A DNA stretch of 47,112 nt from Candidatus Omnitrophota bacterium (GTDB taxonomy: Bacteria > Omnitrophota > Gorgyraeia > Gygaellales > Profunditerraquicolaceae): the NCBI GenBank assembly GCA_025453445.1, contig JALOQJ010000008.1, forward strand, positions 1-47,112, in the 5' to 3' direction. Of this stretch, positions 1 to 23,820 are shown piece by piece (positions within the stretch are counted from its first letter, which is position 1; each line of letters begins with the position of its first letter). Position numbers and translations under genes: made by a program. Under the pieces are notes generated by a model, which saw nothing but the letters and a program-made list of their open reading frames with translations, was not told where the DNA came from and made no database searches.

Positions 1-292
1 TGGGGCAAATTTTTAGCAAGGCAGGCAATGCGCCGCTGTGGTCTGTTTCAATATGATTAACCACAATATAATCAATTTTTTCCACAGGCACGATTTCTCT
101 AATTTTTTCAATTAACTCATCGGCAAACGGCGTATATACTGCATCGACTAAAGTAATTTTATCATCAACGATCAGGTAAGAATTATAGGTCGTACCCCTA
201 TTTGTTGTGTAGGTGTGCCCATGGAAATTACGGATATTCCAGTCCACTGCCCCTACCCAATAAATACCTTTTTTAATCTCGAAACCTGCCAT
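1..292 (-). CDS. FprA-family flavodiiron protein (N-terminal part, cut by window edge)
   Basis: About 97 N-terminal residues of an A-type flavoprotein; the rest lies beyond base 1. The frame contains a metallo-beta-lactamase-like diiron motif HIETDHSG, which is the H-x-E-x-D-H ligand set of flavodiiron proteins. These enzymes reduce O2 to water or NO to N2O in the cytoplasm of anaerobes. The ATG at 292 has a strong GAGGAG SD 7 nt upstream. It is the last visible gene of the Rrf2-controlled oxidative-stress run, consistent with an O2-scavenging role. The flavodoxin domain cannot be seen, so whether a rubredoxin is fused is unknown. Confidence 0.88.
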   Translation of the reverse strand, partial: MAGFEIKKGIYWVGAVDWNIRNFHGHTYTTNRGTTYNSYLIVDDKITLVDAVYTPFADELIEKIREIVPVEKIDYIVVNHIETDHSGALPALLKICP

Positions 293-305
293 AACGCTTC
301 TCCTC

Positions 306-581
306 TTATTTCTTTTCAGGCATGATCATTGGTGCGCCCTGCCGCATCATATCTTTATCCATCATGCAATTTTTCATCGCTTTCATCATCGGACAGCGGC
401 CTGTGATTCCTGCTGTTAAAACAAAAGCTGCGCTAAGCCAAAGCATAACTGCGATAACAATCCCGAAAGTTTTCAGGCCTTTGGCATCTGCTTTGTTAGC
501 AGCAAGCATCACAAAAAAACTGATTGCCAAAAATATCGCAGCAGGCGCAATTGCAAACAAATACCCCATTTTCCCCATCAT
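306..581 (-). CDS. Small two-TM membrane protein with Met-rich tail
   Basis: A 91-residue protein I do not recognise. It has two hydrophobic segments (about residues 7-27 and 38-60), then a C-terminal tail rich in Met with two Cys (CPMM and NCMM motifs), ending EKK. Met/Cys-rich tails can bind soft metals, but that is inference. The ATG at 581 has a perfect AAGGAGG SD. It sits between the peroxidase fusion and the flavodiiron gene with short gaps, so it is probably co-transcribed. Confidence 0.7.
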   Translation of the reverse strand: MMGKMGYLFAIAPAAIFLAISFFVMLAANKADAKGLKTFGIVIAVMLWLSAAFVLTAGITGRCPMMKAMKNCMMDKDMMRQGAPMIMPEKK

Positions 582-607: not shown

Positions 608-1459
608 TTAACCATTCAATTCTTCTATAATCCGGGCGATAATAAAATCATTCTCCGATAAACCGCCGATCGCGTGTGTAGTGCAGGTAATTTTTAATCT
701 ATTGTATACCAAGGTGAAATTCGGATGGTGATTTTGCTCTTCAGCAATCAGAGAAACTAAATCAAGAAAATATTTTGCTTCCTGAAAATCCTTGAAATTA
801 AATTCTTTAGTGATTTTTTTGTCTTCGATTACTTCCCAGCCATTGGCCTTGGCAATTAATTCTTCTATTTTTTCTTTTGCTAACGGTAATGCCCCGCCTT
901 CACAGGGCTTGCAATGCCCGGGCAAATCGCCGCTTACAACTAAAGCAGGCGTTTTTATTACTTCATCGAGCTTACTTAAAACTGCCGCATAGTCCGGCTG
1001 CTTAGTCAATTCCTCGACAACCTGAATATACCTTATAACATTGTTTTTATCAAGAATTAATACGCTGCGCGCCAGCAGGTTCAATTCTTTAATCAAAAGG
1101 CCGTAATTTATCCCGAAAGATGATTGCTTATAGTCGGAAACAACAGTAACATTTTTAATTTCGAAGGTCTCACAGAATCTCTGCTGGGCAAAAGGAAGGT
1201 CCTTGCTTATTCCGACAATCACTACATCCGTAGCAATACCAGCAGCTTTTTTATTGAATTCTTTTACCTGCAGGTCGCAAACCGGAGTATCTAAAGACGG
1301 GAAAGAGGTTAAAATTTTAATTTTATCCTTAAAATCAGAGAGCCTGACTTCTTTTAAATCCTGCGCGCTAACTCTAAAATCAGACGCTATTGCTCCTACC
1401 TTTAAATTCCTGCCTACCAAAGTCAGGGGGCTACCTTTAAACTTTATTGCCCGTGTCAT
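608..1459 (-). CDS. Thiol peroxidase (Tpx) fused to pterin-4a-carbinolamine dehydratase
   Basis: A two-domain protein of 283 residues. Residues 1-168 are an atypical 2-Cys peroxiredoxin of the Tpx type: the peroxidatic Cys is in SLDTPVC (C61) and the resolving Cys in QRFCE (C96), spacing as in E. coli Tpx. After a linker with a CKPC motif, residues about 185-283 match pterin-4a-carbinolamine dehydratase (PhhB/DCoH), with the active-site run NHHPN (H244, H245) and TTHAIGGL (H262). Tpx reduces peroxides using thioredoxin; the PCD domain dehydrates 4a-hydroxypterins. Family Tpx is usually about 165 residues and PCD about 100, so both domains look complete. The SD is GGAG. The single frame is open throughout, so the fusion is not a sequencing join of two ORFs within this window. 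Confidence 0.9.
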   Translation of the reverse strand: MTRAIKFKGSPLTLVGRNLKVGAIASDFRVSAQDLKEVRLSDFKDKIKILTSFPSLDTPVCDLQVKEFNKKAAGIATDVVIVGISKDLPFAQQRFCETFEIKNVTVVSDYKQSSFGINYGLLIKELNLLARSVLILDKNNVIRYIQVVEELTKQPDYAAVLSKLDEVIKTPALVVSGDLPGHCKPCEGGALPLAKEKIEELIAKANGWEVIEDKKITKEFNFKDFQEAKYFLDLVSLIAEEQNHHPNFTLVYNRLKITCTTHAIGGLSENDFIIARIIEELNG

Positions 1460-1469
1460 TTTTTACTCC

Positions 1470-2339
1470 TTAAACTTCAATTTTAAAAACATTCCTGATT
1501 ATCAGGCCAATAGCAAAATTAATTACTGCCACCCCCAGGCTTATTCCGGCCATTTCCATAAATCTCTTTTTGAAATTAAGGCCTTTGGCTACGGAAATAT
1601 AATAGGTAAAGATGAAAATTACCGAAAGCGCAACTGCAATTACCATGGCTAAACAAAGATAGATATTCTTAAGCAATAAATATGGCAAAATTAAAGCTAT
1701 TACTGTTCCCACATAAGCAATGCCGGTATAAATGCTTGCCTTCAACGGGTTCTTCCCGGTATCTTCCTGTTTTGTTGATAAATATTCTGAAGCTGCCATA
1801 GATAAAGAGGCAGCAATACCGGTAATTAAACCAACAATCCCCACCAGTCTTGTATTCTGCAGTGCCAGAGTAAAACCAACCAGGGCTCCGGTTAATTCTA
1901 CCAAAGCATCATTTAACCCCAAAACAACAGAACTGGCATATTTTAAGCGCTCCTCATCAATTAAGCCAAGGAGCTCATACTCATGCGCTTCTTCATCACT
2001 GATTACTTTTTCTACTTCCGGGGATAATTCTCTTAAACCAGCGTAAACATCCTGAGCATTGGCTTCCCCATTCTCCATCAACTTCAAACCAAAGGTCAGG
2101 CCGAATATTTTGGCGATTAGAAAATAAAACCAAATTTTAAAATTATTTTTTGGAACATCGATGGCGCTAAACTGCTTCCAGAAGTCATAATGCGATAATT
2201 CTTCGCAAGAAATCTGCTCAAGAATCTCTGCCTGTTGTTTATTTTTGACGATTTTTGCCAAGCGATGGTAAATCTCAAATTCCGTGATTTCATTCTGCTG
2301 TATCAGGAGAACTTGTTTTTTTAACTGATTATCTATCAT
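1470..2339 (-). CDS. Ferritin-like/VIT1-CCC1 family iron transporter
   Basis: 289 residues. The N-terminal 120 or so residues form a rubrerythrin/ferritin-like four-helix region with iron-ligand patterns (CEELSH and SDEEAHE, ExxH type). The C-terminal part has about five membrane segments with VIT/CCC1 features (LGLNDALVELTGALVG, then SMAASEYLSTKQE). This domain order is found in the MbfA/erythrin-VIT family, which exports Fe2+ or Mn2+ from the cytoplasm and protects against Fenton chemistry. The start lies 1 nt after the superoxide reductase stop, with GGAG inside the preceding codons, implying translational coupling. Confidence 0.88.
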   Translation of the reverse strand: MIDNQLKKQVLLIQQNEITEFEIYHRLAKIVKNKQQAEILEQISCEELSHYDFWKQFSAIDVPKNNFKIWFYFLIAKIFGLTFGLKLMENGEANAQDVYAGLRELSPEVEKVISDEEAHEYELLGLIDEERLKYASSVVLGLNDALVELTGALVGFTLALQNTRLVGIVGLITGIAASLSMAASEYLSTKQEDTGKNPLKASIYTGIAYVGTVIALILPYLLLKNIYLCLAMVIAVALSVIFIFTYYISVAKGLNFKKRFMEMAGISLGVAVINFAIGLIIRNVFKIEV

Positions 2340-2340
2340 A

Positions 2341-2736
2341 TCACTCCACGCTTAATTCTTTGCTGCTTTCCCAAAGCCCGTGTATATTGCAATATGAAGA
2401 AGCTAAAAGCGTGCCTGGTTTTTCGGTTTTAAAACTGCAAACTACTGAAGGCTGAGTATAAATAGTGCTGGTATTAGGCGCCTGGACACTTTCGCCGTGG
2501 GCGCTGAATTCAAACCTGGCAATTTGATAAGGAAACTTTTCGTCCTTAGGATGAAAGAAAAGCGTAATCCAGCGAATATGATGCTCGGTAGTATTAGGAT
2601 GCGGTATTTCTTTGCCTACAGTCAGGGTAACTGAAACCGCACTGCCTTTTTTAACTTTATCCGCTGCTTCGATTACCGGTACATGCTTCTCAGCTTTCCA
2701 ATCTGCTGTCTGAAATAAATCTTTAATTGAGCTCAT
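2341..2736 (-). CDS. Superoxide reductase (neelaredoxin-type, class II)
   Basis: 131 residues. It carries the family iron-site motifs: EKHVP near the N-terminus (Glu and His), HPNTTEHHI (two His) and CNIHG (Cys and His). No N-terminal desulforedoxin Cys4 domain is present, so this is the single-centre class. It reduces superoxide to peroxide without making O2, the typical anaerobe strategy, and the Tpx domain two genes downstream could remove the peroxide. A longer frame opens at 2823, but the ATG at 2736 with AAAGG upstream is preferred because it avoids overlap with the reductase gene and starts just before the conserved domain. Confidence 0.92.
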   Translation of the reverse strand: MSSIKDLFQTADWKAEKHVPVIEAADKVKKGSAVSVTLTVGKEIPHPNTTEHHIRWITLFFHPKDEKFPYQIARFEFSAHGESVQAPNTSTIYTQPSVVCSFKTEKPGTLLASSYCNIHGLWESSKELSVE

Positions 2737-2753
2737 ATCAGTCCAACCTTTCT

Positions 2754-3464
2754 TTAATACCCCAGAAACTTTTCCGTTTTGATATTCTCTCTGCTGCATT
2801 CCAGCCCCAAAGTAATACTGCAAATCGTATCCACCATGCCGGGAGGGCCAAAAATAAATACAGTTCTTTCTTTTAGATCATAAGCCAATTGTTTGATTAA
2901 GTCCTTCTCGATAAAACCGAACATACAGGTTTTATCTTTCGGCTGGCAATCAGTAACAGTATAAAATACCTTAATTTTTTTGTTTATTGCCTGCCAGCGA
3001 TCAAACTCTTTTTTAAAAGCAATCTCATTTTCCGTGCGGTTAGAATAAAGGAGAAAAACATCGGTATCAAGCTTTTTATCAATGATATATTCAACAATGG
3101 AAATCACCGGCGTAATCCCAATGCCACCGATTAAAAAGGCAATCTTTTGGTATTCTTCTTTAAAAACGCAGCTGCCTAAAGGCATTTTCAGCAAAACTTC
3201 ATCGCCAGGTTTTAAATTCAGCAGCCTCTGGGAAAAAATAGACTTGCTGATCCTTTTGGTGAACTCTATATAATCTTTTAGCGGAGAAGAAGATAAGGAT
3301 AAATATTTATTCAGCTCCTTATTTTCCCTGTTGCCTTCGTCAAAAATAACCTGCAGGAACTGGCCCGGGAGAAAATTAACTTTTTCAGGCAGGCTGAAAC
3401 GAAAACTTTCAACCGAAGGAGTCCTACTGATTCTCTCTATTAATTTTGCTCTTAATTCTTCCAT
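2754..3464 (-). CDS. FAD/NAD(P)H-binding oxidoreductase (FNR-like)
   Basis: 236 residues with the ferredoxin-NADP reductase fold. There is an FAD-binding YLSLSSSP element (R-x-Y-S/T type) near residue 55, a nucleotide loop GGIGITP near 110, FGPPGMV near 205 and a terminal EKFLGY. No 2Fe-2S domain is attached. It probably moves electrons between NAD(P)H and a soluble carrier; from context, it may feed the superoxide reductase, flavodiiron protein or thioredoxin-like partners (inference). Its start codon shares a base with the sufB stop, indicating tight coupling. Confidence 0.82.
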   Translation of the reverse strand: MEELRAKLIERISRTPSVESFRFSLPEKVNFLPGQFLQVIFDEGNRENKELNKYLSLSSSPLKDYIEFTKRISKSIFSQRLLNLKPGDEVLLKMPLGSCVFKEEYQKIAFLIGGIGITPVISIVEYIIDKKLDTDVFLLYSNRTENEIAFKKEFDRWQAINKKIKVFYTVTDCQPKDKTCMFGFIEKDLIKQLAYDLKERTVFIFGPPGMVDTICSITLGLECSRENIKTEKFLGY

Positions 3465-4564
3465 TAAAAACTTTTCCCTAGTGTATTTTCTTCCAGATGA
3501 GCAATTTCTTTTTTTAGCATTTCCGGCAATGCCAAAACATTAACATCCATAAAACCCCTGACAATAATAGATTGCGCCTCTGTTGCGCTAAGCCCGCGGC
3601 TCATTAAATACTCTATCTCATCCTTATTAATCTTACCAATGGCTGCTTCATGGGACATATCCACATCGCGATATTCTGATTCCATCTCCGGAATAGCATG
3701 AATTATTCCTTTTTCTGACAAGATTAAACCACGACATTCAAGATGTGCCTTAACGTCCTTACTTTCTGCCTTCAGGTGGCCGCGGGAAATAACTTTGCCT
3801 CCCAGGCTTACAGCGCGGGCAATAATTTCTGCCTGTGTGTTTTTAGCCCGCAAAATAACTCTTGAGCCAATATCCTGTAAAGACCCGGGATGGGATAAAA
3901 TTAACGAATTAAAGCTGGCGCGGCTGGCTTCACCCTGTAATACTGCCGTAGGATACATAGTAATATCTCTTACAGGCCGCAAACAGACATAGTTAGAAAC
4001 AAAAGTCGCCCTTTCTTCTACTAAAGCAATACTGATCGGCTTAACTGAAATATCTTCTTTCCAGGAATGAATCATTGTAAAATTCAAATATCCGCCTTTA
4101 TGGATAAAAAATTCTGAAATCCCCAGATGAAAACCTTCGTCCGCAGATTTCGCTGCAGAGCATCCGGTAATAAGATGTACTTTGGCACCCTCTTCTATGA
4201 TAATTAAATTATGGACTCTCTGCTTAAACCCCTCCGCCTTAAGAAATAGGCAGGCCTGAATAGGCAATTCAATGGTCTTTCCTTTTTTAACACGAATAAA
4301 ATATCCACCTTCAGTATCCTGCGGGTATTCGCGGCCGAGCAACTTAAAAGAACTACCGTAGTATTCCTCAGCTTCAGGATATTCTTTTAAGGCATCTTCT
4401 ATCCTTAATATTTCTACGCCGTCAATCAGGCTGCGGGAAAAACACGTCTGAGCATCCTGCTGCAGGAAACTCGCCGAACGCATTTTCTCTTCTAAATCAA
4501 TACCAGCAGAAGCAATAACTTCCTTATCCGCCGGTTCAAAATTATCCAATTCTTTGCGGCTCAT
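3464..4564 (-). CDS. sufB: SufB/SufD-family Fe-S cluster scaffold
   Basis: 366 residues from the ATG at 4564, which has an AAGGAG SD 5 nt upstream and lies inside the end of sufC. It is a SufBD right-handed beta-helix protein; the conserved C-terminal block SHEAAIGKI followed by LMSRGLSATEAQSIIVRGF is present. Only one SufB/D gene accompanies sufC and no sufS or sufU is adjacent, so the pair resembles the minimal SUF (SMS) arrangement described in anaerobes and archaea. It forms the scaffold with SufC for assembling Fe-S clusters in the cytoplasm. An upstream in-frame extension to 4651 overlaps sufC and is unlikely to be translated. Confidence 0.9.
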   Translation of the reverse strand: MSRKELDNFEPADKEVIASAGIDLEEKMRSASFLQQDAQTCFSRSLIDGVEILRIEDALKEYPEAEEYYGSSFKLLGREYPQDTEGGYFIRVKKGKTIELPIQACLFLKAEGFKQRVHNLIIIEEGAKVHLITGCSAAKSADEGFHLGISEFFIHKGGYLNFTMIHSWKEDISVKPISIALVEERATFVSNYVCLRPVRDITMYPTAVLQGEASRASFNSLILSHPGSLQDIGSRVILRAKNTQAEIIARAVSLGGKVISRGHLKAESKDVKAHLECRGLILSEKGIIHAIPEMESEYRDVDMSHEAAIGKINKDEIEYLMSRGLSATEAQSIIVRGFMDVNVLALPEMLKKEIAHLEENTLGKSF

Positions 4565-5288
4565 GGCACTCCTTACATTTCTCATAACCGAATTTTCTGA
4601 TTTCGCCAAACATCTCTTTGGGATTCCCCACACACCATAATTTACCACCAATCATTACACAGCCTCTTTTTGCTTTTATATAATCCAAAATATATCCGGT
4701 ATGAGTAATGATTAACGCAGACTTGCCTTCTTTTTTTAAATATTCATTTAAAACACTGCCCATGGTTGAGATATTTTCCAGATCAACTCCGGATTCCGGC
4801 TCATCCAGTAACAAAAGCTGAGGATCCTGCAGGATAATTTGGAATAATTCCGAGCGCTTCATCTCACCCCCGGAAAAATCAAGATTAAGATCCCTGCTTA
4901 AATGCTCTGACAAAGATAATTCATTGCTCAGCTCTTTAATCTTTTTTGTATCACGAGACAAAAACCGGGCAACTTGTTCCAGCTTCACACCCCGGATTTT
5001 AGGAGGATGCTGATACATTAAACCAATCCCCAGCTTAACTCTTTGCTCTATGCTCATGCTATTGATTTTCTGCCCAGCAAAAATAATCTCACCACCTGTA
5101 ATATTATACCCGCTAAAACCCATAATCGCCTTAATCAAAGTGGACTTTCCGCTGCCATTAGGCCCGAAAAGAATTGCCACCTCACCTCTGGGAATACTTA
5201 AAATTACATCTTTAAGGATAACCCTTCCCGCAGCTTCAACAGTCAGGTTTTTAATCTCCAGCAAATTTCCTTTTTTCTCCATGGGCAT
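4542..5288 (-). CDS. sufC: SufC-type ABC ATPase for Fe-S assembly
   Basis: About 248 residues. The Walker A is GPNGSGKS, the signature is FSGGEMKR, and the Walker B is LLLLDEPESGVD, which has the SufC-specific ESGxD. It powers conformational change of the SufB scaffold. The C-terminus carries a CKEC pair, not a family hallmark. No good SD is visible: possible starts are TTG at 5300, ATG at 5288 and ATG at 5282. I chose the first ATG. The gene overlaps sufB by 23 nt. Confidence 0.92.
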   Translation of the reverse strand: MPMEKKGNLLEIKNLTVEAAGRVILKDVILSIPRGEVAILFGPNGSGKSTLIKAIMGFSGYNITGGEIIFAGQKINSMSIEQRVKLGIGLMYQHPPKIRGVKLEQVARFLSRDTKKIKELSNELSLSEHLSRDLNLDFSGGEMKRSELFQIILQDPQLLLLDEPESGVDLENISTMGSVLNEYLKKEGKSALIITHTGYILDYIKAKRGCVMIGGKLWCVGNPKEMFGEIRKFGYEKCKECHEPQRIG

Positions 5289-5320
5289 ATTATAACTCAA
5301 TATTGCTTTTTGATTAACAA

Positions 5321-5527
5321 TTATTTCTCACCCATACACGCCTTGGCTGATTTACACCAATCAACACAAGACGGCAGCCGGGCCCGGCAGGCAAATTTCC
5401 CGCATCCCGGGCATTTGACTTTTATTTCATCAGAAAAAATCTCCACTGTATAACCACAAGCAGGACAAGTTAAATTCTCTACCTTAATATTACGCCTATC
5501 CTGTCCGGGGCATTTTTCATTAATCAT
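5321..5527 (-). CDS. Small Cys-rich zinc-ribbon protein
   Basis: 68 residues with seven Cys after the start region: an N-terminal EKCPGQD, a CPACGY/CPGCGK double CxxC ribbon (about residues 21-42), then CRARLPSCVDWC and a final C. It overlaps the Rrf2 gene stop by 4 nt (ATGA-type junction) and precedes sufC. The CxxC pairs suggest zinc or Fe-S binding. A role as a metal or cluster accessory for Rrf2/Suf is inferred from position only. Similar small proteins occur in other anaerobes, but I cannot assign a function. Confidence 0.75.
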   Translation of the reverse strand: MINEKCPGQDRRNIKVENLTCPACGYTVEIFSDEIKVKCPGCGKFACRARLPSCVDWCKSAKACMGEK

Positions 5528-5931
5528 GTTTTATGCGCCGATAACGATGTGATTGTAATCGAAGACAGTTCTTTTATCACGAATTTTTCAATTTTATCCA
5601 ATTTCTTCCTAAGAGGGCAAATTTTGATATTCGGACAAAGCATTTTTTTTAAAAAACATTCACTCAAAACTAGTGGGCCTTGAAATATCCTGATAAGATC
5701 AATAAGAAACACTCTATTTGCCGGCTTAGCTAGAACAAAACCGCCTCCTGAACCCTTATATGATCTAAGTATCCTTTTTCTATTTAATACCTGCAGTATT
5801 TTTCTTAAAAAAGACCTGGGGATACTCAACTTTTCAACTAGCTCCTCCACAGAAACGATTGTTTTCTCACTTTTTGCGATAAAACAGACAGCTCGTAAAG
5901 CATAATCAGTGTCCCGGGTAATAAGTTTCAT
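5524..5931 (-). CDS. Rrf2/IscR-family transcriptional regulator
   Basis: 135 residues. An N-terminal winged helix (DYALRAVCFIAKS through PRSFLRKILQVLNRKRILRSYKGSGGGFVLA) is typical of Rrf2 proteins. A C-terminal Cys triad is arranged C-x6-C-x5-C (about residues 92-105), very like the [2Fe-2S] ligands of IscR, so it probably senses Fe-S status or oxidants. It leads the suf-SOR-FDP genes. A 9-bp-arm inverted repeat over the upstream promoter is a plausible autoregulatory operator. The SD upstream of the ATG is AAGGAGAGGA. Confidence 0.9.
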   Translation of the reverse strand: MKLITRDTDYALRAVCFIAKSEKTIVSVEELVEKLSIPRSFLRKILQVLNRKRILRSYKGSGGGFVLAKPANRVFLIDLIRIFQGPLVLSECFLKKMLCPNIKICPLRKKLDKIEKFVIKELSSITITSLSAHKT

Positions 5932-9290: not shown

Positions 9291-9890
9291 CTAGAAAAAT
9301 CTTTGAAACTTTCCTATCTCCTTTTTAACATCCTTCTTTGTTACCAATGCCTGTATCGCGCACAAACAATCCGCTCCGGAAGATATAACTTGTTTCGCAT
9401 TAGATAAATTGATACCTCCGACAGCAACAACTGGAATCTTGACATGCTTTTTTATCTTCCTGATTAAATCCGGGCCACAAGCCGAACCCGCATCTTTCTT
9501 TGTGCTAGTAGGGAAAATCGGTGATACACCCAGATAATCTGCGCCTGATTTTTCTGCCTGAATTGCTTCGCGCAAATTGTGTACTGTCAGGCCGATAATG
9601 CGAATTTTGCCGATTAGTTTCCTTGCAACCGCATATGGCATGTCGCCTTGGCCCAAATGCACGCCGTCTGCTCCAACTGCCAAAGCTATATCAATCCTGT
9701 CATTAATTATCAGAATAGTATCTTTGCAAATCTGCCTCAACTTTGAGGCCTCTTTAAACATTTCTTCTGTGCTAGCTTGCTTATTCCTGTATTGTACAAC
9801 ACCGACACCTGCTTTTAAAGCATTTTTGACATCGCTAAAAATGCCTGCGCGGCTTAATTCCTTATCAGTAACAAAATAAATTCCCCTCAC
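9291..9890 (-). CDS. thiE: Thiamin phosphate synthase
   Basis: 199 residues with a TIM-barrel fold. Visible family motifs are VQYRNK (diphosphate region), IINDRIDIALAVGADGVHLGQGD, LGVSPIFPTSTK and VVAVGGI. It joins HMP pyrophosphate and thiazole phosphate to give thiamin phosphate. It starts at a GTG overlapping the thiM stop (GTGA junction), so the two are translationally coupled. It is under the TPP riboswitch upstream of thi4. Confidence 0.95.
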   Translation of the reverse strand: MRGIYFVTDKELSRAGIFSDVKNALKAGVGVVQYRNKQASTEEMFKEASKLRQICKDTILIINDRIDIALAVGADGVHLGQGDMPYAVARKLIGKIRIIGLTVHNLREAIQAEKSGADYLGVSPIFPTSTKKDAGSACGPDLIRKIKKHVKIPVVAVGGINLSNAKQVISSGADCLCAIQALVTKKDVKKEIGKFQRFF

Positions 9891-10690
9891 GCTTCTATTT
9901 TCTGCATTTTATCCAGTATTTTTTTATCCAGATGAAAAATACAATCAAACAATTTTTCTTTAAAAGTCCCCGGCCCGGAAGATTTCTTAACAGCACATTC
10001 TGCAGCTACTTCAAAACACACCAAGGCTGCTGCTGAAGCATATACTAGATCATGTTCTACTGCGGCAAAAGCGCCTATAATTGATGCAGCCATACATCCT
10101 GTTCCGACGATGCTTGGCATCATCGGATGGCCATTTTTTATAACATAGGTTTTGCTCCCATCGGTTACAATATCATCTTTTGCGGTTACTACAACTATGC
10201 ACTCTCTCTTGCGTGCAAGTTCTTTAGCCAGCCCAATCATATCTTTCACAACCTCTGCTGCATCTACCCCTCTTGTCCTGATATCTTCGCCGCATATGCG
10301 CGCGATTTCTGAAACATTTCCTTTAATAATATCTATTCCGGCCTCATCCAATAATTCAAAGCTTTTTTTATCGCGAAATTGAGTAGCTCCTGCGCCGCAA
10401 ACATCCAAAACAACTGGTATGCCTTTTTGATTAGCGCTGACTGCGGCGATCTTCATCGACTCAATAAACTCCCGATCAAGAGTACCGATATTTAATACGA
10501 GCGATGAAGCAAGGCGCGCCATTTCTGCCACTTCTTCTTTTGCATGGGACATTACAGGAGAAGCACCGATAACTTTGATAATATTAGCACAGTCGTAAAT
10601 TGTCACCCAATTAGTCAAATGATGCACAACCGGCTTTGTATCCCGAATTTTCTTTAATAATGTATACACATCTAGCTTTATCTTTTTCAC
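9887..10690 (-). CDS. thiM: Hydroxyethylthiazole kinase
   Basis: 267 residues of the ribokinase-like ThiM family. It has the N-terminal VHHLTNWVTIYDCAN, the substrate-site GASPVMSHAKEEV and the catalytic GTGCMAASIIGAF. It phosphorylates the thiazole alcohol, which allows salvage of the thiazole moiety. The GTG start at 10690 has GAGG 5 nt upstream. Its presence next to thi4 means both de novo and salvage thiazole routes are available. Confidence 0.95.
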   Translation of the reverse strand: MKKIKLDVYTLLKKIRDTKPVVHHLTNWVTIYDCANIIKVIGASPVMSHAKEEVAEMARLASSLVLNIGTLDREFIESMKIAAVSANQKGIPVVLDVCGAGATQFRDKKSFELLDEAGIDIIKGNVSEIARICGEDIRTRGVDAAEVVKDMIGLAKELARKRECIVVVTAKDDIVTDGSKTYVIKNGHPMMPSIVGTGCMAASIIGAFAAVEHDLVYASAAALVCFEVAAECAVKKSSGPGTFKEKLFDCIFHLDKKILDKMQKIEA

Positions 10691-10709
10691 AACATCCTCA
10701 CATTTGCCT

Positions 10710-11486
10710 CTAGCTTAATTCTTTAATTATCTGCTGCGCAACCTTCCTGCCTGATAAAAGCATGCCTCCGAAAATCGGCCCCATGCGCGGCCCGCCAAAA
10801 ACAGCATTTGCGCACATCCCGCAAGTATAAAGCCCATTCGCAACTTCTTTGGAATTCTTCACAATAGTTTCTTCGCCTACCTCTGCCCACATTGATTGTT
10901 CACCCATTAGTTTACCAGTTTTAGTCTTCAGCTTCAAGCCGGATTTTCTCTCAGCGATACGTACAACTTCTGCAGCATGTCCTGTGGCATCAATTACAAA
11001 TTTTGCCCGCATAGTAATTGGATCCACATGCAGGTTTGCGATCTCTACGGCAGTCCAGTTTAGAACCAAGCCGCAAATACGATTTTTCCTGATCATTACG
11101 TCTTCGGCGCTAAGTAGATTAAATATTTTTAAACCTGCCTTTACAGCTTTTGAACAAATAGTTGATACGCATTCAATGGAATCCGCCAGATAATAACCCG
11201 GTTCATAAACCCGAGTTCTTACATTAAATTCCTCAAGGATCTTTTTCGCCTTTTCCTGCACTACGATTTCATTAAACATAATCCCGCCACCCCACATTCC
11301 TCCTCCAACAGAAAGCTTCCTTTCAAAAAGCACTACTTTTTTGCCTGCTTTAGCCAAGTAATACCCACAAGCCATCCCTGCAGGCCCTGCACCGACAATC
11401 GCCACATCCACATCTAAAGCCTTAATCAATTTGTCCTTGTATGACTCAATAATCGCTTTGGAAACTTTAATATCATCAATTTGCAT
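10710..11486 (-). CDS. thi4: Thi4-type thiazole synthase (sulfide-dependent form)
   Basis: 258 residues. It has an FAD-binding [18 protein letters not shown], then [12 protein letters not shown], and a C-terminal [16 protein letters not shown]. The position that is a sacrificial Cys in the plant and yeast suicide enzymes is His here (NLHVDP), as in archaeal sulfide-dependent Thi4, so this enzyme should use free sulfide and turn over repeatedly. It makes ADP-thiazole from NAD and glycine. The ATG at 11486 is preferred over 11498 because GGAGG sits 5 nt ahead of it. Confidence 0.93.
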
Positions 11487-11580
11487 ATCTTCCTCCATAA
11501 TTTATTTATGCTTCTCTCTCCCTCGCCTCAATGTAAATACGTTCAACTCAAAGCATGTACGGCAGGCTCGGGATTATTTC

Positions 11581-19148: not shown

Positions 19149-19886
19149 TTATGTTTTTAATTGAATGCTCAGCGGTTTTTCCAGGCTGCTTGCGCGCAGC
19201 AATTCTTCGTCATAAAGAATCTTTTTTGTCTGGCCATCAGCAGTAATCCTGCCCTGATGCAGGACGATGGTCCGTTCACACAAATCCAAGGCCATATCCA
19301 GATCATGTGTAGCAACTATTTTTGTATGCCGGAAGGTTTTAAGCAGTTCGATTAAGCGCCTGCGCGAACGGGGATCCAAGCTGGAAGTAGGCTCATCCAT
19401 TACCAAGATATCCGGGGACATAGCCAACACCGTTGCAATAGAAACAGAGCGTTTTTCGCCTTGAGAAAGTTTATACGGAGGCCGTTTTGCTAAATGCGCT
19501 ACTCCTACAGTCTCAAGTGAACGGACAACAACGCGCTCCACCTCATCTTTTGCTAATCCAAGATTCAACGGGCCAAAGGCTACATCATCAAAAACTGTCG
19601 GCATGAATAACTGATCGTCGGGATTCTGGAATACCATACCCACACTGCGGCGCACGGCATCTAAATTTTTTTTAGTCAACGGGTAATCTCCGATTTTTAC
19701 TGTTCCCTGCCGGGGAGATAGATAGCCGTTTAGATGAAGTAAAAGCGTTGACTTTCCTGCTCCATTTTCACCGACAAGAGCCACAGACTCGCCATGGGAT
19801 ATACGAAAAGTAACACCCCTTAACCCAACCGTTCCATCCGGGTACGTGTAATGCAAATCGGACGCTTCTACGATATGATGGCTCAT
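19149..19886 (-). CDS. ECF-type nickel/cobalt ABC transporter ATPase (NikO/CbiO)
   Basis: 245 residues. Walker A is GENGAGKS, signature is LSQGEKR, Walker B is ILVMDEPTS; the switch His is in VATHDLD. It energises the NikMQ membrane part. Its ATG overlaps the nikQ stop by 4 nt. The upstream NikR site supports nickel over cobalt as substrate. Confidence 0.92.
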   Translation of the reverse strand: MSHHIVEASDLHYTYPDGTVGLRGVTFRISHGESVALVGENGAGKSTLLLHLNGYLSPRQGTVKIGDYPLTKKNLDAVRRSVGMVFQNPDDQLFMPTVFDDVAFGPLNLGLAKDEVERVVVRSLETVGVAHLAKRPPYKLSQGEKRSVSIATVLAMSPDILVMDEPTSSLDPRSRRRLIELLKTFRHTKIVATHDLDMALDLCERTIVLHQGRITADGQTKKILYDEELLRASSLEKPLSIQLKT

Positions 19887-20695
19887 TTTAAAAGTCCGGT
19901 AATGAAAGTGCCTAATTTTAAGGGGACATTAAAATACCTTAAAAATATAAACAGTGCCCCCCACCCAAAAATAAACATAATTTCCTGATAAGTAATTCTC
20001 ATTGATCTGATAATGCGGATATTGCCATCAAAGCCGCGGCAACACATCGCATAATAAATCCGCTCGGCGCGGTCAAGTGTACGCAACAGTAAATTACCCA
20101 GCAATGAAATAAAGGTTTTAAAGCCCATTGCCCCTGAATGAAACGCTCTAAACGAACCGGCACGGACCATCCTCTCAGCCTCGTCGGACAAAACAAATAT
20201 ATACCGGTAGAAAAATAGAAGCTGAACTACAAATGGCTTGGGCACACCGAATTTTATCAACGCTGCGCATACTGCATTAAAACCGGTTAAGGATACTAAA
20301 ATAAGGGCAGCGGTTACTGTTAGCATAAAACGCAAAACGATGGAAATAAAAGAAACCCATCCACCGGAAATACCTATTGAACCGATATGAAACAATATTC
20401 CCCTATCCATCAGAGGGTTAAAAATACCGACTAGTATAGCAAACGGCGAAACGATTAAAACTTTTTTTAGTAGATACCCTGCCGGCAACCCACTTAAAGC
20501 AATCAGGACTATAGGATAAATAAAAAATGGGGTCAGCACAGCAAGCGCATATCTATCGAAAGAGACTACTGTTACGATAAATATGAATGTAGTGATTAGC
20601 TTAGCTCTTGGGTCCAGGCGATGCAACGGGCTATCGCCGGAAGCTAAAGTATCCATATACCCAATATCAAATGAATTTCTGCCGATATTATTCAT
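19883..20695 (-). CDS. ECF transporter transmembrane protein (NikQ/CbiQ)
   Basis: 270 residues, with about six membrane segments. N-terminal DSPLHRLDPRAKLI and C-terminal AMCCRGFDGNIR are typical CbiQ elements (coupling motif). The ATG at 20695 lacks an SD and lies directly behind a T-run; an in-frame ATG at 20656 near YMDTLASG is a possible alternative start. It is separated from nikM by a promoter and hairpin. Confidence 0.88.
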   Translation of the reverse strand: MNNIGRNSFDIGYMDTLASGDSPLHRLDPRAKLITTFIFIVTVVSFDRYALAVLTPFFIYPIVLIALSGLPAGYLLKKVLIVSPFAILVGIFNPLMDRGILFHIGSIGISGGWVSFISIVLRFMLTVTAALILVSLTGFNAVCAALIKFGVPKPFVVQLLFFYRYIFVLSDEAERMVRAGSFRAFHSGAMGFKTFISLLGNLLLRTLDRAERIYYAMCCRGFDGNIRIIRSMRITYQEIMFIFGWGALFIFLRYFNVPLKLGTFITGLLK

Positions 20696-20739
20696 AAAAA
20701 AATTTAGTGAGCAGCGATAGCTGCTACGCTGCTCACTAA
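20696..20739 (-). terminator. Intrinsic terminator/attenuator in front of nikQ
   Basis: The 13-bp perfect stem TTAGTGAGCAGCG/CGCTGCTCACTAA with a 10-nt loop is followed by A plus seven T on the minus strand, then immediately the nikQ ATG. It fits an intrinsic terminator or attenuator. Confidence 0.8.
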
Positions 20740-20749
20740 TTGTAATTTT

Positions 20750-20777
20750 ATTATATCCCTATATTGCGTACTGTCAA
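20750..20777 (-). promoter_or_regulatory. Consensus promoter just downstream of nikM
   Basis: TTGACA (20772-20777) and TATAAT (20750-20755) are 16 nt apart, both perfect. The -35 overlaps the nikM stop codon. The start site would be only a few bases before the hairpin at 20704-20739. Confidence 0.78.
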
Positions 20778-21796
20778 GCCGCGTTCTTACGCTGCCTAAG
20801 CCCTAAGCCAATTAAAACTGCGACCATCAGGGTTAATATACCTCCCACCAACCCTGACACAGACGTACCTGAATCAACAGCCGGCCATACTGGTTTTGCT
20901 TCAGTTTCAGGCTCGCTTTTTTTAAAACCATAGTCCGGTAAAAAGGCTGTTTTTTCCTGGATGCCGGCTAAAGAAACATGCACACTTTCGTGGCTTTCCA
21001 GCTCTTCTTTACCGGAAGTTTTAAACATTGCCCATTCCAATCCATCCGGGTTGCTGGAAGCAAACCAGCTTAACATTCCTCCTGCAATCACAGCTGCTAA
21101 TACCAAAACCAGTAGGACCTTTTTTATATTCAATTTACCAATCGGAATAGAATTCCTTGCAGCATTTAATATTTCCGGACGCGCTTTCCAGACAAAAGTA
21201 ACTACTGCTGCAGTAACTAAGCCCTCCACAACACCGATAGCCAAATGAATCGGCTGCATTAAAATTACAAACGTACGAAACGGTAATTCCGATATCCCTG
21301 AGAATACCGTTTCAAGGACTACGCCAAAAGCCCCTAGCTGCAAACCAATAATTGCTCCAATGAGAGAACCAAGCATTATTTTCCCCTGTGTAGGGTTGTC
21401 TCCTACAATCTTACGGTAAATCAAAGGATAGACAATAAAACACGGGAAAAACCCAAGGTTAAAAATATTACACCCCAAAGCTAAAAGCCCGCCGTCAGCA
21501 AAAAATAGCGCCTGAACAATTAATACCGAAGCCATAACAAGAAAAGCAGCATAAGGCCCAAGGAGAATTGCTAAAATCATCCCTCCGCCCAGATGCCCGC
21601 TGGAGCCGGTAGCCGGAATACTAAAATTGATCATCTGTGAAGCAAAAATAAAAGCGCCTAATACGCCCATGAGTGGGACTTTATGATTATCTCCCTCTTC
21701 TTTTATTTTCTTGGCGCTGTAACCAATAAGCCCTGCTGTAGCAACCCACATTACACCGCCCACAACAGGAGATATTAAGGCATCGGCCATATGCAT
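20774..21796 (-). CDS. ECF transporter S component NikM fused to a PDGLE (NikN/CbiN-like) domain
   Basis: 340 residues. It starts MHMADAL, and the N-terminal His2 is a metal ligand in NikM/CbiM. The membrane core runs to about residue 205; it is followed by a NPDGLEWAM (PDGLE domain) and a final membrane segment. The fused S + N arrangement is known in nickel ECF systems. Substrate binding is at the extracellular face of the inner membrane. It is followed on the transcript by nikQ after a promoter and terminator. Confidence 0.92.
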   Translation of the reverse strand: MHMADALISPVVGGVMWVATAGLIGYSAKKIKEEGDNHKVPLMGVLGAFIFASQMINFSIPATGSSGHLGGGMILAILLGPYAAFLVMASVLIVQALFFADGGLLALGCNIFNLGFFPCFIVYPLIYRKIVGDNPTQGKIMLGSLIGAIIGLQLGAFGVVLETVFSGISELPFRTFVILMQPIHLAIGVVEGLVTAAVVTFVWKARPEILNAARNSIPIGKLNIKKVLLVLVLAAVIAGGMLSWFASSNPDGLEWAMFKTSGKEELESHESVHVSLAGIQEKTAFLPDYGFKKSEPETEAKPVWPAVDSGTSVSGLVGGILTLMVAVLIGLGLRQRKNAA

Positions 21797-21819
21797 TGTA
21801 TTGCTCCCTTCTTTTTAGA

Positions 21820-23214
21820 TTAAAAATCTATTTGCGCCCTCATCCCACCGACAAAAATGCCGTTAGTATCTTCCAGGATATCTGTGCCAAAAGGATTCCA
21901 GATATATTGAAAATCAGGGCTGATTGCTAAATGATTATTGATATGTATCTTATAATAGGCTTCTAAATGGCCTTCGGCTTTCGCACTTCTTGGCGCAGAA
22001 ATAATATTATCGGTGATTTCTGTTTTCTTATAATTATTAGAAGGAAAAACCTGGCCTACGGCAAATGCCAGAATATCTTTTTCCCTGCCCCAAGGCTTAC
22101 CCTCTACCTGAAAACCGCTGCTCCATGAATGTGCCAGCGAATAATTGAGATCTCCTGTTGCCATAAACGCGGAATCAGGATTATATACGCTGGGATCCTG
22201 CCAGCCATAGCGGCAGAAGGCAGTAACTGTATCAGTAACTTTTTGGTCAAAGCTCAAACCAAAACCATAGCTATTCTCTTTGTCTTTAGTGGCGTCCATC
22301 CATTTTCTGTGATAGGCATTATTGTTCCATCCGTAGAAACGGTAATTACCTGCGAGGTTGAGGAAATTAGTTTTAAAAGTTACCTGCCCGATATTAAAGG
22401 TATTATCAAACATTTTGCTCCAATTATCGCTATTGCTGTTAAACATACCATAGCCCAATTCTATCCATTCTTTTGGCAAATAGGCAACACGAATGCCTGC
22501 GGTATTATCCGGAAATTCAAGCGTCGGAGAATTACGGAATATCCTGCCTAAAAATTGGGTGGTTTCATCATTAGCAACTTCATTCTGGTCAAAATAAGCA
22601 GTGGGATCAAGTTTGCCGAATGTAAGCGCGACCTTATCCTTAAATAACCCCTGCTCATACCACAATTCAGTTACTCTGACATTCTCATGGTCATCGGCAT
22701 CGCGATTAACATTACTGTAAAGCGTTAAATCATCTTCCATGCCGCTGCCTTGCCCGCCTTCAAGATGCAAAAATGCCCTGCCGCCCACCTCATTAAATTC
22801 TTTGGCTAAAGTTATATCCGCAGAATAAGACCCGTCAGTGCGGTTTTTCTTCTTATCTACACCGGAAGTAGCATTATTAACATTATTTGCCCCCTGGACA
22901 ATCATCGTCATGCCTGCGCCTAACTCAAGGCCTTCCATAATCTGCATGGTTTCACCCGGAGCACGATGCAGCTTTACTTCAAATTCCGATAATTTTGATT
23001 CGTATTCAGCGATCTTTTTCTCCTGTACCCGATCTTCTGAATTTTTAGCAGCGATAATTTTATCCTGTTGGGAAACTTTCTCTTCCAAAGCCTCGATACG
23101 CTTTTGCAACTGGCGTACTGTTTCCTCCAATGATGCCTGATCAGCAAATACAGAATTACCGCAGAAAAAAGAAAAAACCAACAAAAATAATACTACTTTC
23201 TTTACTACCGCCAT
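21820..23214 (-). CDS. Outer-membrane porin, OprB-like, with N-terminal coiled coil
   Basis: 464 residues from the ATG at 23214. A signal peptide ends near SVFADQ. A short coiled coil follows (LEETVRQLQKRIEALEEKV), then a long beta-strand-rich carbohydrate-porin-like region, ending in Phe (QIDF), typical of outer-membrane beta-barrels. Located between nikR and nikM, so it is a candidate nickel-related porin rather than a sugar porin. A G10 tract lies in the SD region. Confidence 0.82.
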   Translation of the reverse strand: MAVVKKVVLFLLVFSFFCGNSVFADQASLEETVRQLQKRIEALEEKVSQQDKIIAAKNSEDRVQEKKIAEYESKLSEFEVKLHRAPGETMQIMEGLELGAGMTMIVQGANNVNNATSGVDKKKNRTDGSYSADITLAKEFNEVGGRAFLHLEGGQGSGMEDDLTLYSNVNRDADDHENVRVTELWYEQGLFKDKVALTFGKLDPTAYFDQNEVANDETTQFLGRIFRNSPTLEFPDNTAGIRVAYLPKEWIELGYGMFNSNSDNWSKMFDNTFNIGQVTFKTNFLNLAGNYRFYGWNNNAYHRKWMDATKDKENSYGFGLSFDQKVTDTVTAFCRYGWQDPSVYNPDSAFMATGDLNYSLAHSWSSGFQVEGKPWGREKDILAFAVGQVFPSNNYKKTEITDNIISAPRSAKAEGHLEAYYKIHINNHLAISPDFQYIWNPFGTDILEDTNGIFVGGMRAQIDF

Positions 23215-23221
23215 AAATATA

Positions 23222-23231
23222 CCCCCCCCCC
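23222..23231 (-). repeat. G10 homopolymer in the porin ribosome-binding region
   Basis: Ten consecutive G on the minus strand, fused to a GGAGG core and 7 nt before the porin ATG. Length change would alter SD strength and spacing. Homopolymers of this length are uncommon elsewhere in the window. Confidence 0.8.
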
Positions 23232-23313
23232 TCCATTGTTGTTTGCACCAGCTCAAAGTCATGGTATACTTATGGCTGGGCTTGGTTGTTTAGTATTTTC
23301 GCCAAGTACCGCG

Positions 23314-23347
23314 CCCCGCCGGAATCTTTTGCGAGAGGATGGCGGGG
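23314..23347. repeat. GC-rich inverted repeat between nikR and the porin
   Basis: CCCCGCC (23314-23320) pairs with GGCGGGG (23341-23347) around a 20-nt loop that can pair further (ATC...GAT). There is no T-run on either strand, so a terminator is not supported. The rest of 23215-23406 has no supported ORF. Confidence 0.55.
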
Positions 23348-23406
23348 TGTTACTTTATATACGTTTTTCAAATTCGTGCTACGATTAAACAAAAAAATAA
23401 TACTTA

Positions 23407-23820
23407 CTACAATTCTTTACCGGTTGAGGACATGCTTAAGGCCCCATGCTTAACTCCTTTGATCGCCTTTAAGGTATCTGCTAATTCTTGCGCATCCTTA
23501 GAAGATCCTTTTATCGCAATAATTTCTAGGCAATTATCATGGTCGAGATGAACATGCTGCGTAGAAATGATTATTTTCTGAAAATCATGCTGGATATCGG
23601 TTATCTTATTTAAGAGCTCTCTTTTATGATGATCATAAATTAAAGTAATTGCCCCGGAAATCTCTTTATTCCCTTTCCACTCGGCCTTTACCAGATCTTC
23701 GCGGATTAAATCACGGATAGCTTCGGAGCGATTAGCGTAATTTTTGATCTTGCGGTGAGAATCAAATTTACGCAGTAAATCCTTTTCCAAAGAAATCCCG
23801 AATCGTACCAAAAAAGACAT
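23407..23820 (-). CDS. nikR: Nickel-responsive regulator NikR
   Basis: 137 residues: an N-terminal ribbon-helix-helix (LVRFGISLEKDLL, then NRSEAIRDLIRE) and a C-terminal ACT-like nickel domain. The Ni ligands are visible with spacing of E. coli H76, H87, H89, C95: H78 (IQHDF), H89 and H91 (TQHVH), C97. It represses nickel uptake genes when Ni is sufficient. An AAAGGA SD precedes the ATG. It leads the porin-nikMQO run. Confidence 0.96.
   Translation of the reverse strand: MSFLVRFGISLEKDLLRKFDSHRKIKNYANRSEAIRDLIREDLVKAEWKGNKEISGAITLIYDHHKRELLNKITDIQHDFQKIIISTQHVHLDHDNCLEIIAIKGSSKDAQELADTLKAIKGVKHGALSMSSTGKEL

Follow-up and report, generated by a model that had tools for sequence, protein, structure and literature searches.

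The window analysed here, a stretch of 47,112 nucleotides from the genome of a Candidatus Omnitrophota bacterium (contig JALOQJ010000008.1), carries near its first position a run of minus-strand genes encoding, in order, an Rrf2 regulator, a small protein, SufC, SufB/D, a flavin oxidoreductase, a desulfoferrodoxin, a VIT1-domain protein, a fusion of thiol peroxidase (Tpx) with pterin-4a-carbinolamine dehydratase (PCD), a small membrane protein and a flavodiiron-type protein. The features of this run are as follows.

5524-5931, minus strand: regulator of the Rrf2 family, opening the run (domain match), with a promoter-like 11/12 match at 6103-6076
4542-5300, minus strand: SufC-type ATPase (ABC_tran domain match)
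3464-4651, minus strand: SufB/D-type protein (domain match)
2754-3464, minus strand: FAD/NAD(P) oxidoreductase resembling the reductase part of flavohaemoproteins (Pfam, NCBIfam)
2341-2823, minus strand: desulfoferrodoxin/neelaredoxin-type superoxide reductase (1.9e-33)
1470-2339, minus strand: VIT1-type membrane domain protein (Pfam VIT1), its N-terminal half ferritin/rubrerythrin-like by eye
1466-1471, minus strand: AAGGAG ribosome-binding site, 6 bases 5' of the fusion ATG and overlapping the stop of the upstream gene (from the sequence)
608-1459, minus strand: Tpx-PCD fusion gene, 283 amino acids, ATG to TAA (frame, Pfam matches to both domains, relatives)
306-581, minus strand: small protein, membrane-type by eye and unmatched in Pfam
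2-292, minus strand: start of a flavodiiron-type protein with an ODP/metallo-beta-lactamase domain (domain match), cut by the window end

The oxidoreductase and desulfoferrodoxin frames overlap by 70 bases (window 2754-2823), and the true desulfoferrodoxin start probably lies later, inside the listed frame, at MSSIKDL. Further along the window, inspection by eye revealed thiamine genes at 9291-11498, among them a Thi4-like thiazole synthase next to frames resembling ThiM and ThiE, and a metal uptake set at 19149-23820, comprising a CbiM/Q/O-like transporter, a porin-like protein and a NikR-like regulator.

The initial annotation had described Tpx fused in frame to PCD at 608-1459; these coordinates are correct, and the strand, which it left unstated, is minus. 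The frame reads from an ATG at 1459 to a TAA at 608 and contains both domains in full, Tpx preceding PCD, with a gap of 10 bases between the stop of the upstream gene and the fusion ATG. Since the frame holds no second in-frame ATG, the PCD half is probably not produced separately; near the junction, TTG at codon 179 alone resembles a start. The domains and conserved residues are located as listed below, where conservation refers to 48 fused sequences, namely 47 named loci among the matches listed and the window itself.

959-1459, minus strand: Tpx domain, residues 1-167 (Pfam, NCBIfam, solved structures, VIA-align)
1277-1279, minus strand: Cys61, peroxidatic cysteine in TPVC, in 48/48 fused sequences
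1172-1174, minus strand: Cys96, resolving cysteine, in 48/48
887-958, minus strand: linker, residues 168-191, between the Pfam matches (pLDDT about 65-68 at residues 171-190)
902-913, minus strand: C-x-P-C motif, residues 183-186, with C183 in 47/47 (one gap) and C186 in 47/48
617-886, minus strand: PCD domain, residues 192-281 (PF01329)
722-730, minus strand: HHP, residues 244-246, catalytic motif, in 48/48
674-676, minus strand: His262, catalytic motif, in 47/48
647-649, minus strand: Asp271, catalytic motif, in 48/48

Domain searches identified both halves. In Pfam, the protein matched Redoxin at residues 21-161 (2.7e-24) and Pterin_4a at residues 192-281 (7e-28, 97 bits against a cut-off of 26). 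The Tpx half scored 185.6 bits against the NCBIfam thiol peroxidase equivalog PRK00522.1, above its cut-off of 123, while the PCD half stayed below the respective cut-offs of all five NCBIfam PCD equivalog subgroups, PRK00823.1-1 to -5 (bits/cut-off: -4, 98.9/137; -3, 86.5/108; -1, 75.3/133; -2, 74.2/80; -5, 70.2/146). The nearest solved proteins were the Tpx 2yzh for the front (5.4e-40) and DCoH-like proteins for the back (1ru0, 8.7e-17). An AlphaFold2 model of the fusion protein built from 36 sequences reached a mean pLDDT of 88.1 and a pTM of 0.84 and was weakest at residues 171-190. Its residues 3-167 superimposed on 3p7x in VIA-align (Z 28.8, 163 residues aligned, rmsd 1.0) and thus adopt the Tpx fold.

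Both active sites are preserved, as had been proposed: C61, C96, HHP at 244-246 and THAIGG at 261-266 are all present at these positions. The protein of the window has cysteines at 61, 96, 183, 186 and 259, and we take the first two to be the peroxidatic cysteine in TPVC and the resolving cysteine about 35 residues further on, by the positions in E. coli Tpx. The PCD active site reportedly conforms to a motif described by Naponelli in 2008, E/D-x3-H-H/N-P followed by H and D. The PCD of the window matches it from residue 240 (EEQNHHP...Y...H...D); among the fused sequences, 47 of 48 match from HHP to D and 38 of 48 match the whole motif. T261, G266 and N270 are likewise invariant in all 48. 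The mean frequency of the commonest residue was 0.755 in the Tpx domain and 0.765 in the PCD domain, compared to 0.568 in the linker.

Each half resembles well-known proteins. With the Tpx of E. coli and S. aureus (PDB 3hvv, 3p7x) the fusion shares the family, above a curated cut-off, the fold and both catalytic cysteines; the solved Tpx proteins listed are mostly 163-175 residues long (up to about 200 with tags or a leader), whereas the fusion continues into PCD. With PCDs of the PhhB/DCoH type (PDB 1dch, 1ru0; COG2154) it shares PF01329, the catalytic motif and a C-x-P-C in front as in standalone relatives, but here the PCD sits behind a peroxidase, in genomes without aromatic hydroxylase and mostly without MoaC. 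The peroxiredoxin-nitroreductase fusion enzyme of PDB 4eo3, compared by its entry title, also combines a peroxiredoxin-type domain with a second enzyme, which is a nitroreductase there and a dehydratase here. In keeping with the earlier view that the arrangement is uncharacterised, the literature searched, with most subscription papers outside its scope, contained no report of a Tpx-PCD fusion and none with both 'carbinolamine dehydratase' and 'Omnitrophota'. Both enzyme families are known; their combination as Tpx-PCD is new.

We next turn to the distribution of the fusion. The same full-length fusion recurs, at 64-71% identity, in other genera within the family and order. Across a sample of 384 genomes drawn from the phylum Omnitrophota, 139 matched PF01329, and in 49 of these a frame of at least 281 amino acids was also covered by the fusion profile. 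Four genomes kept apart from the 49 have broken, cut or unresolved frames (G026, G031, G041 and G291), and the other PF01329 genomes carry PCD in shorter frames. Of these shorter-frame loci, 27 were examined together with their flanks, and none has a Tpx relative beside the standalone PCD. The initial annotation had named absence from all relatives, or an assembly join, as the outcome that would undo the fusion; an assembly join or chance is excluded because the full-length fusion recurs, as one frame, in many independent genomes (49/384 sampled) and in other genera. Judged by the titles of the named relatives, the lineage carrying it is Omnitrophota, mostly uncultured bacteria. Among the matches listed, the fusions in records titled otherwise stood under Auribacterota (1), Jettenia (1, L053) and Chlamydiae (1, L061), the latter two of which may be mislabelled records or contaminant contigs. 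The named loci (at least 80) derive from a scan on two Tpx motifs, which misses fusions with a Tpx without both motifs. No viral relatives of the fusion were found in viral_contigs, and none of 252 plasmid records with a match covered 80% of the query; the 30 listed of these 252 match the Tpx half.

Phylogenetic analysis indicated that the fusion arose once, since the 49 fused PCDs (including one with a decayed Tpx) formed a single clade distinct from the 27 standalone PCDs (one change; SH-aLRT 96.9), many forks being weak in both this tree and that of Tpx. The Tpx tree retained 78 of 80 loci, L089 and L093 having been dropped for broken or cut frames, and its five changes are one too many because the frame-broken fusion L072 was counted as unfused. 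Within it, unfused Omnitrophota Tpx are nested among fused ones at two places or more, and many of them occupy the same position in the genome, with desulfoferrodoxin and flavodiiron genes close by. The PCD was thus lost at least twice while the Tpx was kept. The unfused Tpx of L088 and L091 branch outside the fused ones.

The neighbourhood seen in the window recurs in part. Within about 6 kb, 24 of 47 fusions (among the matches listed) had a flavodiiron gene, compared to 3 of 27 standalone PCDs (p 9e-4); the corresponding counts were 15/47 and 0/27 for desulfoferrodoxin (p 6e-4) and 17/47 and 2/27 for the flavin oxidoreductase (p 0.006). Rrf2 genes did not differ (12/47 against 8/27), and SufB/D relatives were commoner beside standalone PCDs (9/27 against 2/47).

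To our knowledge, PCD homologues occur in many organisms that lack an aromatic amino acid hydroxylase, and their role there is unsettled. We examined pterin and cofactor genes in 44 genomes, 30 of the 49 with the fusion (complete ones being favoured) and 14 with an unfused Tpx. The fused PCD was the sole PCD in all 30 fusion genomes; across the larger sample, too, all 49 genomes with a long-frame fusion showed one PCD match and no second, separate PCD. PCD was absent from all 14 genomes with an unfused Tpx, and since 12 of these 14 nevertheless have HPPK, a marker of folate synthesis, making folate does not always require PCD; HPPK was found in 30/30 fusion genomes. Aromatic amino acid hydroxylase was detected in a Caulobacter control genome and in none of the 30 fusion genomes, none of the 44 genomes with fused or unfused Tpx (that of the window included) and none of 48 standalone-PCD genomes. 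MoaC was present in 6/30 fusion, 0/14 unfused-Tpx and 29/48 standalone-PCD genomes (6/30 against 29/48, Fisher p 5e-4, these presence counts, like the others, ignoring the kinship of the genomes). Formate-THF ligase exceeded the cut-off in 19/30 fused and 4/14 unfused genomes and as a marker settles nothing. In the genome of the window, which is 93% complete, MoaC, aromatic hydroxylase and formate-THF ligase were not matched and HPPK was present, so the pterins of the folate pathway are the only ones shown to be made there. In another genome (G120, L201:1274-3840), a standalone PCD ends a run of SDR, FolB, HPPK and GTP cyclohydrolase I (FolE) genes.

Some relatives depart from the common form. 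In four loci (L079:4312-5055, L086:5992-6735, L087:2299-3048 and L090:3949-4689), an intact Tpx is followed by a catalytically dead-looking, PCD-like C-terminal domain of about 75 residues without HHP and the second His. Pfam did not recognise this domain in the two of the four loci that were scanned; hhalign aligned it to the fused-PCD profile with a probability of 84% and a score of 35.1, compared to 18.8 for the best of 200 column shuffles and 11.0 on reversal. In a model of the L079 protein that is weak as a whole (mean pLDDT 57.7), the PCD-like part had a pLDDT of about 81-85 and the strand-helix order of PCD; structure searches with this model and with that of the fusion returned lists filled by Tpx-like chains, in which PCD chains were not listed. 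A desulfoferrodoxin gene lies near all four loci. Conversely, the protein at L187:2925-3773 (G243) has an intact PCD (86 bits) behind a redoxin domain that lacks both Tpx cysteines and falls below the Pfam cut-off. Instead of oxygen-stress genes, its neighbours include a ZIP-family zinc transporter and a transporter that by eye is of the cation-diffusion type. Judged from these sequences, each half can survive without the chemistry of the other, and the two steps need not be coupled, given the repeated loss of PCD, the dead PCD-like domain and the decayed Tpx of G243.

The intact chain with both sites kept, its single origin, the oxygen-stress neighbours, its status as sole PCD, the folate gene and the missing hydroxylase and MoaC lead us to favour, tentatively, a predicted bifunctional oxygen-defence enzyme whose PCD half would repair oxidised tetrahydropterins, most likely of the folate type. 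The Tpx half would reduce H2O2 or organic hydroperoxides via Cys61 and Cys96, presumably using thioredoxin. Reactive oxygen may meanwhile turn the tetrahydropterins of the cell, most likely folates or folate precursors, into 4a-carbinolamine (4a-hydroxy) forms, which the PCD half would dehydrate to quinonoid dihydropterin. Restoring the tetrahydro form would then fall to a reductase, with the flavin reductase of the gene neighbourhood as a candidate; E. coli Hmp has dihydropteridine reductase activity. The fusion would thereby tie pterin repair, in amount and in place, to an enzyme that removes oxidants. A pterin review (PMC9737128) describes oxidation of H4-biopterin by electrophiles at C4a-N5, consistent with the formation of a carbinolamine, and to that extent supports repair of pterin damage. 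The rubrerythrin-like domain that one relative adds ahead of Tpx and the placement of a standalone PCD behind FolB, HPPK and FolE also count in favour of this reading. The earlier suggestion that the fusion links peroxide removal with pterin repair thus gains indirect support from the oxygen-stress neighbours, the invariant PCD residues and HPPK; its molybdopterin variant does not, MoaC being absent here and from 24/30 fusion genomes. These bacteria form a lineage that retains PCD solely as a peroxidase tail, within an oxygen-stress cluster and in genomes that lack the hydroxylase and, for the most part, molybdenum-cofactor synthesis. The fusion suggests that they repair oxygen-damaged pterins (folate-like cofactors); in this setting the role of the PCD narrows towards oxidised pterins, probably of the folate type, and a single protein is available for testing.

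Other explanations differ in what the PCD half would do. PCDs form dimers and tetramers, and a PCD joined to a Tpx dimer could serve purely as an assembly module that builds larger complexes. The four loci that keep an intact Tpx and a PCD-profile domain without HHP and the second His fit this idea, as does the predicted PCD-like strand-helix order of L079. However, the near-complete invariance of HHP, T261, H262, G266, N270 and D271 is more than a scaffold needs, and G243 has kept its PCD residues though its Tpx lost both cysteines, so we consider this account possible but rather unlikely. The dimerisation role raised in the initial annotation is accordingly disfavoured as the sole role in the main lineage and may hold in the four-locus side lineage. 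We give similarly limited credence to two unrelated activities sharing one chain because their genes are co-expressed under oxygen stress, with PCD acting on a housekeeping pterin. The halves have indeed been lost or have decayed independently; yet fused PCDs, unlike standalone ones, keep to an oxygen-stress neighbourhood, and an additional, separate PCD is missing from all 49 long-frame fusion genomes. Consecutive chemistry, in which Tpx would reduce the 4a-hydroperoxide of a tetrahydropterin or folate to its 4a-carbinolamine and PCD would dehydrate the product, making the fusion a dedicated pterin-hydroperoxide repair enzyme, is doubtful: the parts of PMC9737128 that treat free H4-biopterin peroxide describe it as disfavoured at equilibrium, which counts against Tpx reducing such a hydroperoxide for PCD.

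The remaining explanations carry far less weight. The C-x-P-C at the junction could act as an internal dithiol for reducing the Cys61-Cys96 disulfide, rendering the peroxidase self-serving, and both C183 and C186 persist in nearly every fused sequence; a CxxC near the start is, however, also found in 22 of 27 standalone PCDs from Omnitrophota, so that the motif belongs to PCD and came with it rather than with the fusion, and one fusion (L190, G076) lacks it, making this role very improbable. A role in molybdenum-cofactor metabolism, proposed in PMC3223725 for PCDs of organisms without aromatic hydroxylases (a link of COG2154 reportedly drawn by Naponelli in 2008), has in its favour the presence of MoaC in 29/48 standalone-PCD and 6/30 fusion genomes; the absence of MoaC from the 93% complete genome of the window and from most fusion genomes leaves it with hardly any likelihood. 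Recycling a pterin cofactor for an aromatic amino acid hydroxylase, given as the classical role of PhhB in the portion of PMC1173090 concerned with it, is almost certainly not the function here, as the hydroxylase family was found in 0/44 genomes with fused or unfused Tpx and 0/48 with standalone PCD by a search that detected the Caulobacter control.

Finally, the Tpx-PCD pair also occurs as part of a longer protein. At L070:5452-6843 (and, as the same protein, at L188:1947-3335, G238), a rubrerythrin-like domain precedes Tpx and PCD in one chain of 463 residues.
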